Below are positions 1,600 to 12,947 of a stretch of 23,740 nt of DNA, piece after piece. Origin of the DNA: a virus; the IMG/VR virus record IMGVR_UViG_3300027852_000168, positions 1 to 23,740 of that record; one strand, 5' to 3'. Each line of letters begins with the position of its first letter. Position 1 is the stretch's first letter. Made by a program: the position numbers and the translations under genes. The notes beneath the pieces were generated by a model. The model saw only the letters and a program-made list of their open reading frames with translations, did no database searches and had not been told where the DNA came from.

Positions 1600-2050
1600 T
1601 CTTTGGACCCCGCAGCCTGGGCGTCACCCCACGCGCAAAAATAAAGTTTCTTTTTGGCTTTAGGCCTGTCGGCATCAAAAGGACTATGCTGCGCGGTTGC
1701 CCCTTCTCACGGCGCTTTAGAACCTTCTTGCGCACCAGTGAACTAACAGTGGCGAAGGCTTCGCTTTTGCTATACAAGCCACACCCATCACAAATTTCCT
1801 GATAGGTCGGGGAAAGCTGATGCCGCGCAATGTAAAGTTCAATAAATTGATGAACCTTGGCCTGATTTTTGGTAAGCCCTTGGATTATTGGTTTTGGTGA
1901 ATGGTGCAGCATTTCTGCCCATATAGCCCTGATTATTCTTTTGTCTCTGGGTGGCGTTCCGGATGCCATGCTAGACAAAAGAGGATATGCAGCTTCAACC
2001 ATTTGATCGGTTGGGTTAATGGGTAAGGCGCGATGCGTTGCATCTTTCAT
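1589..2050 (-). CDS. LexA-type winged-helix DNA-binding protein without protease domain
   Basis: A 153-residue protein. Residues about 59-125 match the N-terminal LexA DNA-binding domain: LTKNQAKVHQFIELYI corresponds to LexA helix 1, SPTYQEICDGCGL to the helix-turn-helix entry, and AFATVSSLVRKKVLKRREKG to the recognition helix and wing. The S24 protease domain (Ser/Lys dyad, Ala-Gly cleavage site) is absent, so self-cleavage on DNA damage is not expected. Residues 1-55 are of unknown type. It probably acts as a transcription regulator of phage or SOS-type operators (inference). The start at 2050 overlaps the upstream gene by ATGA and is preceded by GGGGAAGGGAA. Confidence 0.8.
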   Translation of the reverse strand: MKDATHRALPINPTDQMVEAAYPLLSSMASGTPPRDKRIIRAIWAEMLHHSPKPIIQGLTKNQAKVHQFIELYIARHQLSPTYQEICDGCGLYSKSEAFATVSSLVRKKVLKRREKGQPRSIVLLMPTGLKPKRNFIFARGVTPRLRGPKNGT

Positions 2051-2358
2051 TTCCCTTCCCCCGTTGTGAATCCACCATCGCCCGCGCCTTCATCCCCCTG
2101 CTCGTTTGGCATGTCGCCATCATCTATGGGGTAAAATTCAGGCGGCGGCGGCTCTTTCCTTGGTGCGCGTGGCAAGCGATGATGCTTTTTGGCTTGGTTG
2201 TCATTGGGATTAGAAACCATATGAGCCTGACGGGTGGTCAGGTTGTGTATGGTAACAAGATGCTGCTGAATTTGCCGACCTGGTTTCAGTCTGACGCTAC
2301 AATAAGGGCATTCAATCATGCCGCGTGGAAAGTTCGCACGGTGGGTTTCGCACTTCAT
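2047..2358 (-). CDS. C2H2 zinc-finger protein with acidic C-terminal tail
   Basis: A 103-residue protein. Residues 17-38 form a C-x2-C-x12-H-x4-H finger (CPYCSVRL ... QQHLVTIH). A Lys/Arg/Pro-rich linker (about 55-75) is followed by an acidic tail containing GDMPNEQGD and GDGGFTTG. That tail is almost the same as the tail of the RecA-fold ATPase just upstream (see findings). The finger suggests nucleic-acid or protein binding, and the shared tail suggests a shared partner or a copied 3' end. It overlaps its neighbours by ATGA on both sides (2355-2358 and 2047-2050). Confidence 0.7.
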   Translation of the reverse strand: MKCETHRANFPRGMIECPYCSVRLKPGRQIQQHLVTIHNLTTRQAHMVSNPNDNQAKKHHRLPRAPRKEPPPPEFYPIDDGDMPNEQGDEGAGDGGFTTGEGK

Positions 2359-3341
2359 GTTCGCCCCCCCGTTGTAAAGCTGCCATCGCCCGTGTCATCG
2401 CCCCTCTGGTCGTTTGGCATGTCGCCAAATTCACCAACACCGGGGCGGGTTTTGTCCTCTGCATCTGCGGCTATATTCTTCAGCCTTTCAAGGTGCTTTT
2501 GCATTTCGGCGCGGCGTGGTGTGACCGCCTTTATATCGCCATCAGGGCCAGCCTTTTTCCATTCCTCTTTCCATGCGGCTTTCAGACTTTCGCTGCCCGC
2601 ATAGGCTTCACTTTCCAGCCGGGTCATGGCTTCAATAAGATCCATGTTTGGTTTTTCATGCAGGTCAACATCAGACGCAAGGCGCTGGCCGTGTTCCTTT
2701 GTGATCAAAACACCATCATCCACAATCCCAATCAGCGGCTTAGGCACCTTAATCACTTTCGTCGTGTGATCCGGTCGAAGTTCAACCGATAGGTCCATTC
2801 TGTAGGGCAGGTCTTTGTCACATTCCGGCTTCATAATTTCCTTGGCCGGTTTGCTTGTCATATCAACAATTCGGTTTAGGCGGATGGTAACGATAACATG
2901 GGCATGGCTTGAACTGATCGCGGAATAGAAGCGTTTCCGGCCTGCCTTGGGCTTGATCCATTTATTCCGGCTAACCCCGCGCCCTGTCAGGCGGGCTTCC
3001 TCTTTGTCAGCAAATTCAAGGAATCCTTCATGTTCATGGCTGGCCGTGTCGATGATAACGGCGTCGGCACCATAGGCAACGGCGGATCTGAACGCATCAA
3101 GGAACCTGTCTGACGTGTAGGGTTCAACCATATCAATCCGCTTGAAACCGCCTATATCCGGATCATCGGCATAGATATTTGCGCGCCCGCCTTCGCTGTC
3201 GATAACGACTATTTCCCCGTCAGGACCAACAAGGCCGCGCGCGAACAGAAGGGCGGAATAGGTTTTGCCTGACCCTGAACCACCAATAAATGCGGCGGTG
3301 ATCGGTGCGCTTTCGCGCTTGGCGTCTATAACTTCAAACAT
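2355..3341 (-). CDS. RecA-fold ATPase, AAA_24/Sak4-like (recombination)
   Basis: A 328-residue protein from the ATG at 3341, which has a proper ribosome site (AAAGAGGAA) and leaves a 16-bp gap after the exonuclease stop. The longer frame starting at 3527 would lie inside the exonuclease gene and was not chosen. The Walker A motif is GGSGSGKT (residues 20-27), a VVIDSEGGRA strand follows at 46-55, Walker B is AVIIDTA with D98, and a sensor-like strand HVIVTIRLNR lies further on. This arrangement fits phage AAA_24 ATPases, including Sak4-type single-strand annealing proteins. Next to a RecE-like exonuclease it probably anneals or loads processed DNA ends. The C-terminus carries an acidic tail (GDMPNDQRGDDTGDG) shared with the next gene. 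Confidence 0.8.
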   Translation of the reverse strand: MFEVIDAKRESAPITAAFIGGSGSGKTYSALLFARGLVGPDGEIVVIDSEGGRANIYADDPDIGGFKRIDMVEPYTSDRFLDAFRSAVAYGADAVIIDTASHEHEGFLEFADKEEARLTGRGVSRNKWIKPKAGRKRFYSAISSSHAHVIVTIRLNRIVDMTSKPAKEIMKPECDKDLPYRMDLSVELRPDHTTKVIKVPKPLIGIVDDGVLITKEHGQRLASDVDLHEKPNMDLIEAMTRLESEAYAGSESLKAAWKEEWKKAGPDGDIKAVTPRRAEMQKHLERLKNIAADAEDKTRPGVGEFGDMPNDQRGDDTGDGSFTTGGRT

Positions 3342-3357: not shown

Positions 3358-4365
3358 CTATGATTCCCAATCAAAGATTGATCGCGCCGCGCCCAATTCT
3401 TCATCAGTGAATGATTTCCAGTGTGTAGGTCTGACCCACATTTCGCCAGGTTCAAATTCGGCCATATGTTCGGCGAAAATGCAGGTTGCATAATCCACCC
3501 CTCTTTGCGCCGATTTCCAATATTCATTGTCTGGCTGACCGTCGCGGCTGTTCCTTACAAACTGGCGCGGGATCACATTTGGCACCCCGTCTTTTTCCAG
3601 GTAAATATACCAGTGCGCAAAGTGGCTTTCAGCGCCATCCTTGATTTCAGACAATATTTCTTCAAATTCTTCTATTTTGTTAGCAGAATCAGCGTGAAAC
3701 TGGATATTGACCTTCCCCCCGTCGATGGCAGCGCGCATATGGTCAATCCCCGTGCGATACCACACCGCGCTAATGTGATAGCGAAGGTTGCCGGTCGCGT
3801 AGGCGATGCAGGTTCCAAGGTCTTTATCCATTTGGTTCGCAAAGGTTTTCAGATCAAAGGCCATGTCGCCCTTCAAGGCATCAAGCCGGATTTTGCAGCG
3901 GTGGCCGCTTTCGTGTGTCCAGATATAGGTAACCTCGGGGATTGAACCGTTGATCATTTCTGTCACGCCTGACCGGCGACAAGCCTCAATAATTGATGCG
4001 AGCGTTCGGTTTTCATCCGCTGTTATAATCTCTGCACCATCATCAAGCCGGGTCTGTCGCCACGCCTTGCCTTCTTTGGTGGCGAATGACATGCCTTCCG
4101 GCTTCGCGACAAAAATCTTGTCGGTGTTTTCCAGAACAACTTCATGGATCAGCGTCCCAAGTTGTTTGGCGGGGGTGCTTTTGCTGGGGGTCCGGTTTGG
4201 ATTTAGGTGGCTGTTAACCCAATATTTTAGCGGGCTGATCAGCAGGTTTTTCAGGTCAGAAGACCCAAGCGCCGGGTCGGCCAAATACGCTTCAAGCGAA
4301 AGGCCCAAATGGATTCCGTCAGGCAGTAATTCATCCCTTTTTTCGGTTGTGGATTCGTCGGTCAT
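3358..4365 (-). CDS. RecE-like PD-(D/E)XK exonuclease
   Basis: A 335-residue protein from the ATG at 4365 (ribosome site AAAGGGAAAGA; ATGA overlap with the LRR-like gene). The in-frame upstream ATG at 4482 would add 39 residues read from inside the LRR-like gene and is unlikely. Family features of the exodeoxyribonuclease VIII C-terminal type (PF12684-like) are an early YWVNSHLNP segment, KQLGTLIHEVVLE with H74 at about 66-79, and the catalytic pair R-L-D162 ... F-D171-L-K173-T. It should degrade duplex ends to expose single strands for the annealing or ATPase protein encoded just downstream. The terminal part (Trp-rich, DWES) looks complete. Confidence 0.82.
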   Translation of the reverse strand: MTDESTTEKRDELLPDGIHLGLSLEAYLADPALGSSDLKNLLISPLKYWVNSHLNPNRTPSKSTPAKQLGTLIHEVVLENTDKIFVAKPEGMSFATKEGKAWRQTRLDDGAEIITADENRTLASIIEACRRSGVTEMINGSIPEVTYIWTHESGHRCKIRLDALKGDMAFDLKTFANQMDKDLGTCIAYATGNLRYHISAVWYRTGIDHMRAAIDGGKVNIQFHADSANKIEEFEEILSEIKDGAESHFAHWYIYLEKDGVPNVIPRQFVRNSRDGQPDNEYWKSAQRGVDYATCIFAEHMAEFEPGEMWVRPTHWKSFTDEELGAARSIFDWES

Positions 4366-4940
4366 GTTCTTTCCCTTTCGTTTTTCCGGACCGCCTCGAC
4401 AAACGCAGCGCCGCGCTCCTGATCCGGATAGCACTTCGCGCCCCAATGGCGGATGGCCTGCTTTGCGGTGAATGCCCGGCACCCGGCGTAGTAGCGACCA
4501 TGGGCCTCAAGTAGCACATAGCCTCGATTGTCGCGGTAGAGGCAGGGGAGGTTGGGGCAGCTATAGACATTCACCGTCTTGCAACCATTCGAGATGGCGA
4601 TTGAAGTCAGAAAGGCGCAGTCATAGACATTCACCACCTCGCACCCCTTCGAGACGGTGAGCGATGTTAGCGCGGGGCAGTTGATGGCATCCACCACCTC
4701 GCAACCATTCGGGACGGTGAGCGAGGCAAGCGCGGGGCAGTTGATGGCATCCACCACCTCGCAACCATTCGGGACGGTGAGCGAGGCAAGCAAGGGGCAG
4801 TTGTAGGACTCCACCCACTTGCACCCCTCGGGGAGGGTTAGCGAGGTGAGCTTGGGGCAGCTAATGGCATTCACCCTTTTGCACCCTTCCGGCGCGATAT
4901 AGGCACCAACGGTATCTTCCGGAACGCAGTGGACAATCAT
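4362..4940 (-). CDS. LRR-like 20-residue repeat protein, copy 2
   Basis: A 192-residue paralogue of the protein at 471-995. It has five full 20-residue units plus a terminal one (about residues 19-135), of the form G-C-x-V-V-x-x-x-x-C-P-A-L-T-S-L-T-V-x-x, then the shared C-terminal domain (GYVLLEAHGRYYAGCR, AIRHWGA). The central units include two 60-bp DNA copies that differ at only two bases, so unit number has changed recently. The start at 4940 is preceded by GAAAGGGAAAGAG and overlaps the upstream gene by ATGA; the stop overlaps the exonuclease start by ATGA. Function unknown; a protein-binding solenoid is the likely fold. Confidence 0.8.
   Translation of the reverse strand: MIVHCVPEDTVGAYIAPEGCKRVNAISCPKLTSLTLPEGCKWVESYNCPLLASLTVPNGCEVVDAINCPALASLTVPNGCEVVDAINCPALTSLTVSKGCEVVNVYDCAFLTSIAISNGCKTVNVYSCPNLPCLYRDNRGYVLLEAHGRYYAGCRAFTAKQAIRHWGAKCYPDQERGAAFVEAVRKNERERT
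4561..4880. repeat. In-frame 60-bp tandem repeats coding 20-residue LRR-like units
   Basis: The DNA is periodic at 60 bp over about five units. The units at 4681-4740 and 4741-4800 are identical except for a CG-to-AA change near the end. The period equals exactly 20 codons, so gain or loss of a unit keeps the reading frame. A more diverged version of the same array lies at about 680-930 in the paralogue. Confidence 0.85.
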
Positions 4941-7116: not shown

Positions 7117-7968
7117 ATGACAGGAAAGCAAATAAAGCCAGACTGGATTCCTTGGGAACCGGCTAGATGGGTGGCCGGAACTGCCGAAATGGATCAGCAA
7201 ACAGAGTTTGTTTTTTTCAGGCTTTGCATGTTTGCCTATGTGAAAGCTGATCCAATTGTTAGCGGTTCCGAAAAAAGAAACTCCATGCGCTGCAAAGTTT
7301 CAGTCGAAGAATACCGCGATGCCTTGGCGGTTCTGGTTGAATTAGAGAAAGTCACAATCACAAAAAACGGTGTTTTAGTTCACTCAACCGAAGGGCGTTT
7401 GCGCGATAGCGTCACACGGATTTCAGCACGGCAAAGGGGGGCGGCAATATCCAGGCGCAGGCGTGAATTGAAGTTTGCAGGCAAAAAAACTTCTGAAATT
7501 AATCTGATCATCAGTAAGGAATTTTCTGATGACCAACGTAGTATACAGACAGACAATACAGACAGACAGACAATACAAGACACACAAGGGGGTGTGGGGG
7601 AACAGTTTGAATTGGTCCCATCAGAAGGAAACAAAGTTGATGATGCCAAGGCGGCGGTTGATCTATGGAATGACCTGGCCAAAACTGAAGGGCTTGCCCG
7701 CGTCCAGATACTTTCTGATTCTAGGCGCAAAAAGCTAAAAGATCGGTTGAAGCAGGTCGGCGGCATAGATGGTTGGAACGGTGCCTTGATGAATGTGGCT
7801 GACAGTGACTTCCTGTCTGGTCGGGTGCCAAACAAGGATTGGAAGGCAACATTTGACTTCATGCTTCAAGAAAAAAGTTTGGTTAAGATCATGGAAAGAT
7901 CTTATCCACCATACCGCAGCGAAGGGCGGAAAGCTTCTGAAGTAATGAGCGCAATCAGGGATATATAA
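7117..7968 (+). CDS. DUF1376-type phage replication initiation protein
   Basis: A 283-residue protein. The N-terminal domain (about 1-110) resembles DUF1376: W-I-P-W at 11-14, a TAEMDQQTEFVFFRLCMFAY helix, and SVEEYRDALAVLVELE, a winged-helix layout. The linker (about 135-165) is Gln/Thr/Asp-rich and is coded by an iteron-like DNA repeat. The C-terminal domain contains VDLWNDLAKTEGL and WNGALMNVADSDFLSGRV ... WKATFDFML, the pattern seen in many phage primosome or origin-binding proteins. Likely role: recognise the phage origin and recruit the helicase machinery, as lambda O does. Ribosome site GAAGGTGA. Confidence 0.7.
   Translation: MTGKQIKPDWIPWEPARWVAGTAEMDQQTEFVFFRLCMFAYVKADPIVSGSEKRNSMRCKVSVEEYRDALAVLVELEKVTITKNGVLVHSTEGRLRDSVTRISARQRGAAISRRRRELKFAGKKTSEINLIISKEFSDDQRSIQTDNTDRQTIQDTQGGVGEQFELVPSEGNKVDDAKAAVDLWNDLAKTEGLARVQILSDSRRKKLKDRLKQVGGIDGWNGALMNVADSDFLSGRVPNKDWKATFDFMLQEKSLVKIMERSYPPYRSEGRKASEVMSAIRDI
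7526..7580. repeat. Iteron-like repeat A inside the replication gene
   Basis: The sequence has a 22-bp lead beginning CTGATGACCAAC and ending TAGTATACA, followed by alternating AGAC and AATACAGAC units. It codes the Gln/Thr/Asp linker of the replication protein. A copy of both the lead (one mismatch) and the unit array occurs at 12858-12920. In lambdoid phages the origin iterons lie in the linker of the O gene, so this may be the replication origin. Confidence 0.6.
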
Positions 7969-12756: not shown

Positions 12757-12831
12757 CCATTGTGAAAAAAGTGAATATTGTTGTGTTTTCTTGATAACCA
12801 GAGCATTTTTTTCTGATGATCTAAAATATAG

Positions 12832-12920
12832 GACTGATGACCAGACTGATGACCAGACTGATGACCAACATAGTATACAATACAGACAATACAGACAGAC
12901 AATACAGACAATACAGACAG
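12832..12920. repeat. Tandem and dispersed repeat B in the gap after terL
   Basis: Three perfect copies of the 12-bp GACTGATGACCA (12832-12867) run into a 22-bp sequence also found at 7526-7547 (one mismatch), then AATACAGAC twice, AGAC, AATACAGAC twice, and AGAG (12879-12922). This fills most of the 191-bp gap 12757-12947, and the rest is AT-rich (TCTAAAATATAGG near 12821-12832 could hold a -10 element). Possible roles are origin or regulatory iterons, or a recombination product of copy A. Confidence 0.65.
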
Positions 12921-12947
12921 AGGGATTGTTAAGGGAGATTTGAACAG

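Follow-up and report, generated by a model that had tools for sequence, protein, structure and literature searches.

A zinc-finger gene flanked by copies of one gene junction in a phage operon, probably through insertion

Why two neighbouring phage genes whose protein bodies are unrelated should end in nearly the same DNA is the question raised by the locus described here. The window (the whole stretch of 23,740 nucleotides that was analysed, virus record IMGVR_UViG_3300027852_000168) carries on its minus strand a gene for a Sak4-like RecA-fold ATPase of 328 amino acids (2355–3341), a gene for a zinc-finger protein of 103 amino acids (2047–2358) and a gene for a LexA-like DNA-binding protein of 153 amino acids (1589–2050). 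The ATPase was matched to phrog_1366 (E = 4.7e-50 over residues 1–296) and to the Sak4-like phrog_124 (E = 3.6e-6), and the LexA-like protein to PF01726 (E = 2.9e-8). The reading favoured here, with a probability of about 0.83, is that the zinc-finger gene would have been inserted where the ATPase gene meets the LexA-like gene, and that the junction sequence would have come to flank it on either side.

The last 73 bp of the zinc-finger gene (2047–2119) and of the ATPase gene (2355–2427, both on the minus strand) were found to align without gaps at 57 of 73 positions, and the approximately 16 differences counted in a preliminary description of this DNA proved to be exactly 16. The next-best ungapped match of either end in the whole window reached 38/73, and codon-order shuffles of both gene ends gave a maximum of 39/73 in 300 trials. 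The two encoded tails, GDMPNDQRGDDTGDGSFTTGGRT and GDMPNEQGDEGAGDGGFTTGEGK, have 13 of 23 residues in common, and the best identity within the aligned ends is a stretch of 18/18 nt, TGGCGACATGCCAAACGA, located more than 50 nt upstream of the start. The bodies of the two proteins are unrelated despite this DNA repeat, as had been stated earlier. No third copy of the tail was found in the 23,740-base contig, and the exact 17-mer GGCGACATGCCAAACGA was present at five places in other contigs, none of which reads as a gene end with the tail. A reading of TGGCGACATGCCA as a DNA operator was rejected, the dyad being weak and confined, within the window, to the two repeat copies.

The 3'-end match noticed in the preliminary description stands, but its supposed limit at the gene end does not, since the repeat continues into the start of the next gene. 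A whole-window repeat search returned a 92-nt direct repeat, D3 (2336–2427 versus 2028–2119, 74% identical), each unit of which contains tail codons, a G-rich ribosome-binding stretch, the ATGA overlap of stop and start, and the opening codons of the gene that follows. The first copy, J1 (2336–2427, minus strand), thus comprises the ATPase 3' end, the ribosome-binding site (RBS), the overlap and the first zinc-finger codons, and the second, J2 (2028–2119, minus strand), comprises the zinc-finger 3' end, the RBS, the overlap and the first LexA-like codons. Beyond the stop the match is short, with 5 of 8 residues at the protein starts: the zinc-finger protein opens with MKCETHRA and the LexA-like protein with MKDATHRA, and the codons of the common K, T, H, R and A show synonymous differences only. 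Among approximately 117,000 pairs of ORF starts, 15 had at least five of residues 2–9 in common, true homologues included. Because the repeat crosses the stop into the next start, the duplicated unit reads as a gene junction rather than as a tail, with its copies standing on both sides of the zinc-finger body.

The zinc-finger ORF is a chimera, in which residues 1–13 are of the LexA-like-start type, residues 14–80 (67 residues) form the body and residues 81–103 (23 residues) are of the ATPase-tail type. The C2H2-like body, presumed to be the inserted part (2119–2319, minus strand, about 200 bp), has the spacing C-x2-C-x12-H-x4-H, read directly as Cys18, Cys21, His34 and His39, and its profile matches were weak (phrog_35915, E = 0.001; PF16293, E = 0.041). 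These domain matches have residue 14 or 15 as their first position, close to an internal Met14, consistent with a body of approximately 200 bp between two junction copies. The structure models were poor, with mean pLDDT values of 40.7 and 58.4, and were left unused.

The related phage contig IMGVR_UViG_3300029264_000336 (L003, a 35-kb record) encodes the exonuclease, ATPase, LexA-like and treble-clef proteins in the same order as the window, with protein identities of 73%, 75%, 72% and 77%, respectively; its full gene order is exonuclease, HNH-like ORF, ATPase, LexA-like and treble-clef. The L003 ATPase ends in EFGDMPNSQPEEDHGPGQFGGGEGQ (tail EFGDMPN...GEGQ), and the TGA of its gene overlaps the LexA-like start, VKKELTHRSLPI, as GTGA with no gene between them. 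When the zinc-finger protein was searched against the whole L003 record, the ATPase tail was the sole match and no zinc-finger body was found. The comparison of 3' ends that had been proposed earlier gave, for L003, a single copy of the junction, without the zinc-finger gene. This arrangement makes the THR(A/S)LP start a feature of the LexA-like gene and the GDMPN tail one of the ATPase gene, the zinc-finger gene having a copy of each. The HNH-looking ORF of L003 (4675–5016, 113 amino acids), which separates the exonuclease and ATPase genes and has no counterpart at that place in the window, gave no Pfam or NCBIfam match, and Xanthomonas phage FoX5 carries an annotated HNH gene at the same exonuclease/ATPase junction.

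In the explanation proposed, an insert would have entered where the ATPase gene adjoined the LexA-like gene, and the junction would have been duplicated around it. Set between two copies, the zinc-finger gene shares its end with one neighbour and its start with the other, its frame opening with the copied LexA-like start and running in frame into the copied ATPase tail. The alternative offered in the preliminary description, a 3'-end duplication made by recombination, is supported and can be worded more exactly as a duplication of the whole junction around an inserted gene. Of the 11 gene junctions in this arm, eight overlap by 4 nt at ATGA, among them the two that bound the zinc-finger gene, when the exonuclease ATG is taken as 4363–4365. 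Such overlaps couple the translation of neighbouring genes, and the tail in its 3' part also provides the next gene with its RBS. An insert landing in an ATGA junction would break this link unless it brought a new stop, RBS and start, and a duplicated junction would supply all three, provided that the insert read into the copied tail in phase. The tail would be a passenger of the junction duplication, and the junction copy may have been retained for its RBS and for the stop/start overlap by which successive genes are linked. Homologous or homeologous recombination at a short boundary sequence is the likely mechanism, and the exonuclease VIII-like protein and the Sak4-like ATPase of the phage itself, encoded nearby, may plausibly have carried it out, as annealing proteins of such a kind recombine diverged sequences according to two reports (PMC5499656, PMC2327257).

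The age of the event was estimated from a comparison of 78 sites, in which J1 and J2 agreed with each other at 59 sites and with L003 at 44 and 47, respectively. Synonymous divergence between J1 and J2 was 0.35, half of the 0.68 found for the orthologous ATPase cores of the window and L003. The duplication is thus old, arguing against an assembly artefact, but the greater likeness of the copies to each other, together with their lower synonymous divergence, places it after the two phages separated, unless homogenisation has made J1 and J2 alike. These values favour insertion on the window lineage, the direction (gain rather than loss) being judged from one close relative, a sample in which insertion and loss are not separable by a polarising outgroup. 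They also weigh against the converse history, in which the three-gene order with two junctions would be ancestral and the zinc-finger gene would have been removed from the L003 lineage when the two copies recombined. Such a loss is considered unlikely, even though the direct repeats, at a distance of 308 bp, could recombine to leave exactly the L003 order and the single L003 junction leans towards J1 upstream and J2 downstream. The latter pattern holds at 11 of 13 informative tail sites (p ~0.06), or at 13 of 17 sites when the start codons are included (p = 0.12); it would be expected from recombination between two different junctions and is suggestive only. The contigs L039–L041 carry relatives of the treble-clef gene, with a LexA-like gene in L039 only. 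At L039 4157–5941, this LexA-like relative (37% identical) follows a different recombination module, composed of a YqaJ exonuclease and an unnamed protein ending in FGTGDQGDGS, so that the LexA-like and treble-clef genes are seen in the company of recombination genes of unrelated kinds; the event is thus not polarised by these contigs. A donor of the zinc-finger body was not found in phages, plasmids or viral contigs, nor were prophage relatives found in bacterial genomes in two scans; the viral-contig scans used a few short peptide patterns, so that relatives may have been missed. No RNA family was found in the region.

A shared docking tail resembling that of SSB was the preferred reading of the preliminary description. 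As weighed here, the duplication would have supplied an acidic peptide with the core GDMPN, and selection would keep it on both proteins for one partner. EFGDMPN is indeed identical in the ATPases of the window and L003, with two synonymous and no replacement changes in seven codons, against replacements in 12 of the 18 freely changing codons that follow. The five GDMPN residues are also kept in the zinc-finger copy, and pN/pS between J1 and J2 (0.20/0.35) is below 1. Between J1 and J2, however, the GDMPN stretch is identical at synonymous sites as well, and hence gives no sign of protein-level selection. The tail proved to be the fastest-evolving part of the ATPase, with a pN between the orthologues of 0.41 versus 0.13 for the core, an approximately threefold faster protein change, and the GDMPN motif was present in none of nine more distant ATPase homologues (from Vibrio, Salmonella, Pseudomonas, Xanthomonas, Acinetobacter and Achromobacter phages and contig L009). 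The tails close with GGRT and GEGK rather than with the Pro-Phe of the SSB type, whereas PF is the terminus of seven of the eight SSBs encoded at homologous loci. A search of the window, L003 and L039 records, which are possibly fragments, gave no SSB domain, and the 3' part of the tail has its RBS role to serve in any case. As descent from the junction explains the shared tail, docking is not required and is regarded as quite improbable. The locus is ordinary phage gene mosaicism and not good evidence for a shared docking tail; any room for function would be limited to EFGDMPN, the short core that the two related ATPases have both retained. That the zinc-finger protein gained, with this EFGDMPN-type peptide of the ATPase, a place in the same recombination complex is very doubtful; if true, junction duplication can equip a newly inserted phage gene with a functional tail from the outset. 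Separately, F is the last residue of ATPase homologues from Salmonella and Vibrio phages (IEGF, IEEF and IENF; L011 2977–4017, L012 2995–3999 and L015 2495–3532), the gene that follows in L011 and L015 being an SSB, and these F-ending peptides might be candidate docking tails. Convergence, by which the ends would be alike merely through the needs of the RBS and the ATGA overlap, finds some footing in the purine-rich G tracts that precede the starts in the L003, J1 and J2 junctions, but it is contradicted by the positions of the identities, with TGGCGACATGCCAAACGA lying far from any RBS and the whole 73-bp match far above the codon-shuffled controls, and its likelihood is next to negligible.

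Junction sequences of duplicated genes were also found elsewhere in the same arm. Two BspA-type leucine-rich-repeat (LRR) paralogues (471–995 and 4362–4940, minus strand) are 79% identical over a 300-nt stretch, differ in their numbers of 60-bp repeat units and have no match in the L003 record. These duplicated genes share the junction sequence GAAAGGGAAAGAACATGAC, or close variants of it, at their ends, and as a result several proteins in the arm end in ERERT or ERERA. The duplicated LRR genes would likewise have carried their RBS junctions along, a second case that points in the same direction as the insertion between copied junctions proposed above; GAAAGGGAAAGAACATGAC is purine-rich, and the common sequence could be partly convergent. 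At two distant places in the window, a 43-nt ACAGACA-rich direct repeat was also observed (7549–7591 versus 12882–12924, 79% identical), with a 12-bp tandem repeat, TGACCAGACTGA, at 12826–12876, just before its second copy.

Comparable arrangements have been described in other phages. In mycobacteriophage Island3, gene 68 is absent from Brujita, and its last 18 residues and approximately 60 bp of its DNA match the upstream gene 67; Brujita holds one copy, and recombination at a short shared sequence was proposed by the authors (PMC3029335). The present locus similarly has an extra small gene whose 3' end matches the upstream gene and a relative with one copy. It differs in that the repeat enters the start of the next gene, the inserted gene being copied at both ends, and in that the relative is approximately 75% identical in protein rather than nearly identical, with a single copy that is not clearly recombinant. 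The locus is a further member of the Island3 67/68 kind, and one in which the inserted gene also takes its start from the copied stretch. LRRHood genes 43–46 lie between 29-bp direct repeats, with a single copy in Cali (PMC3029335), and resemble this locus in having extra genes between direct repeats near gene ends and a single copy in a relative; they differ in that four genes are involved, the repeat is shorter and no shared protein tail of such length was described. The tight packing of small genes with ATGA stop/start overlaps recalls the chain of ATGA-interlinked genes of the lambda nin region (Kroger and Hobom 1982, as cited in PMC8022706 and PMC7166090), although the genes and the phage are different and the comparison is one of arrangement. 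In the Sak4–SSB pair of phage HK620, the acidic tail is on the SSB and ends in NDYPPF (PMC5928155). An acidic C-terminal peptide is thus again found in a system with a Sak4-like ATPase, whereas the tails described here are on the ATPase and the zinc-finger protein.

This one locus shows how a gene may be added to a tightly linked operon without breaking the translation of the next gene, a junction with its stop, RBS and start being copied together with the insert. It also serves as a warning that the shared tails or starts of neighbouring phage genes may be by-products of insertion, and that a docking reading of such tails needs the support of relatives.
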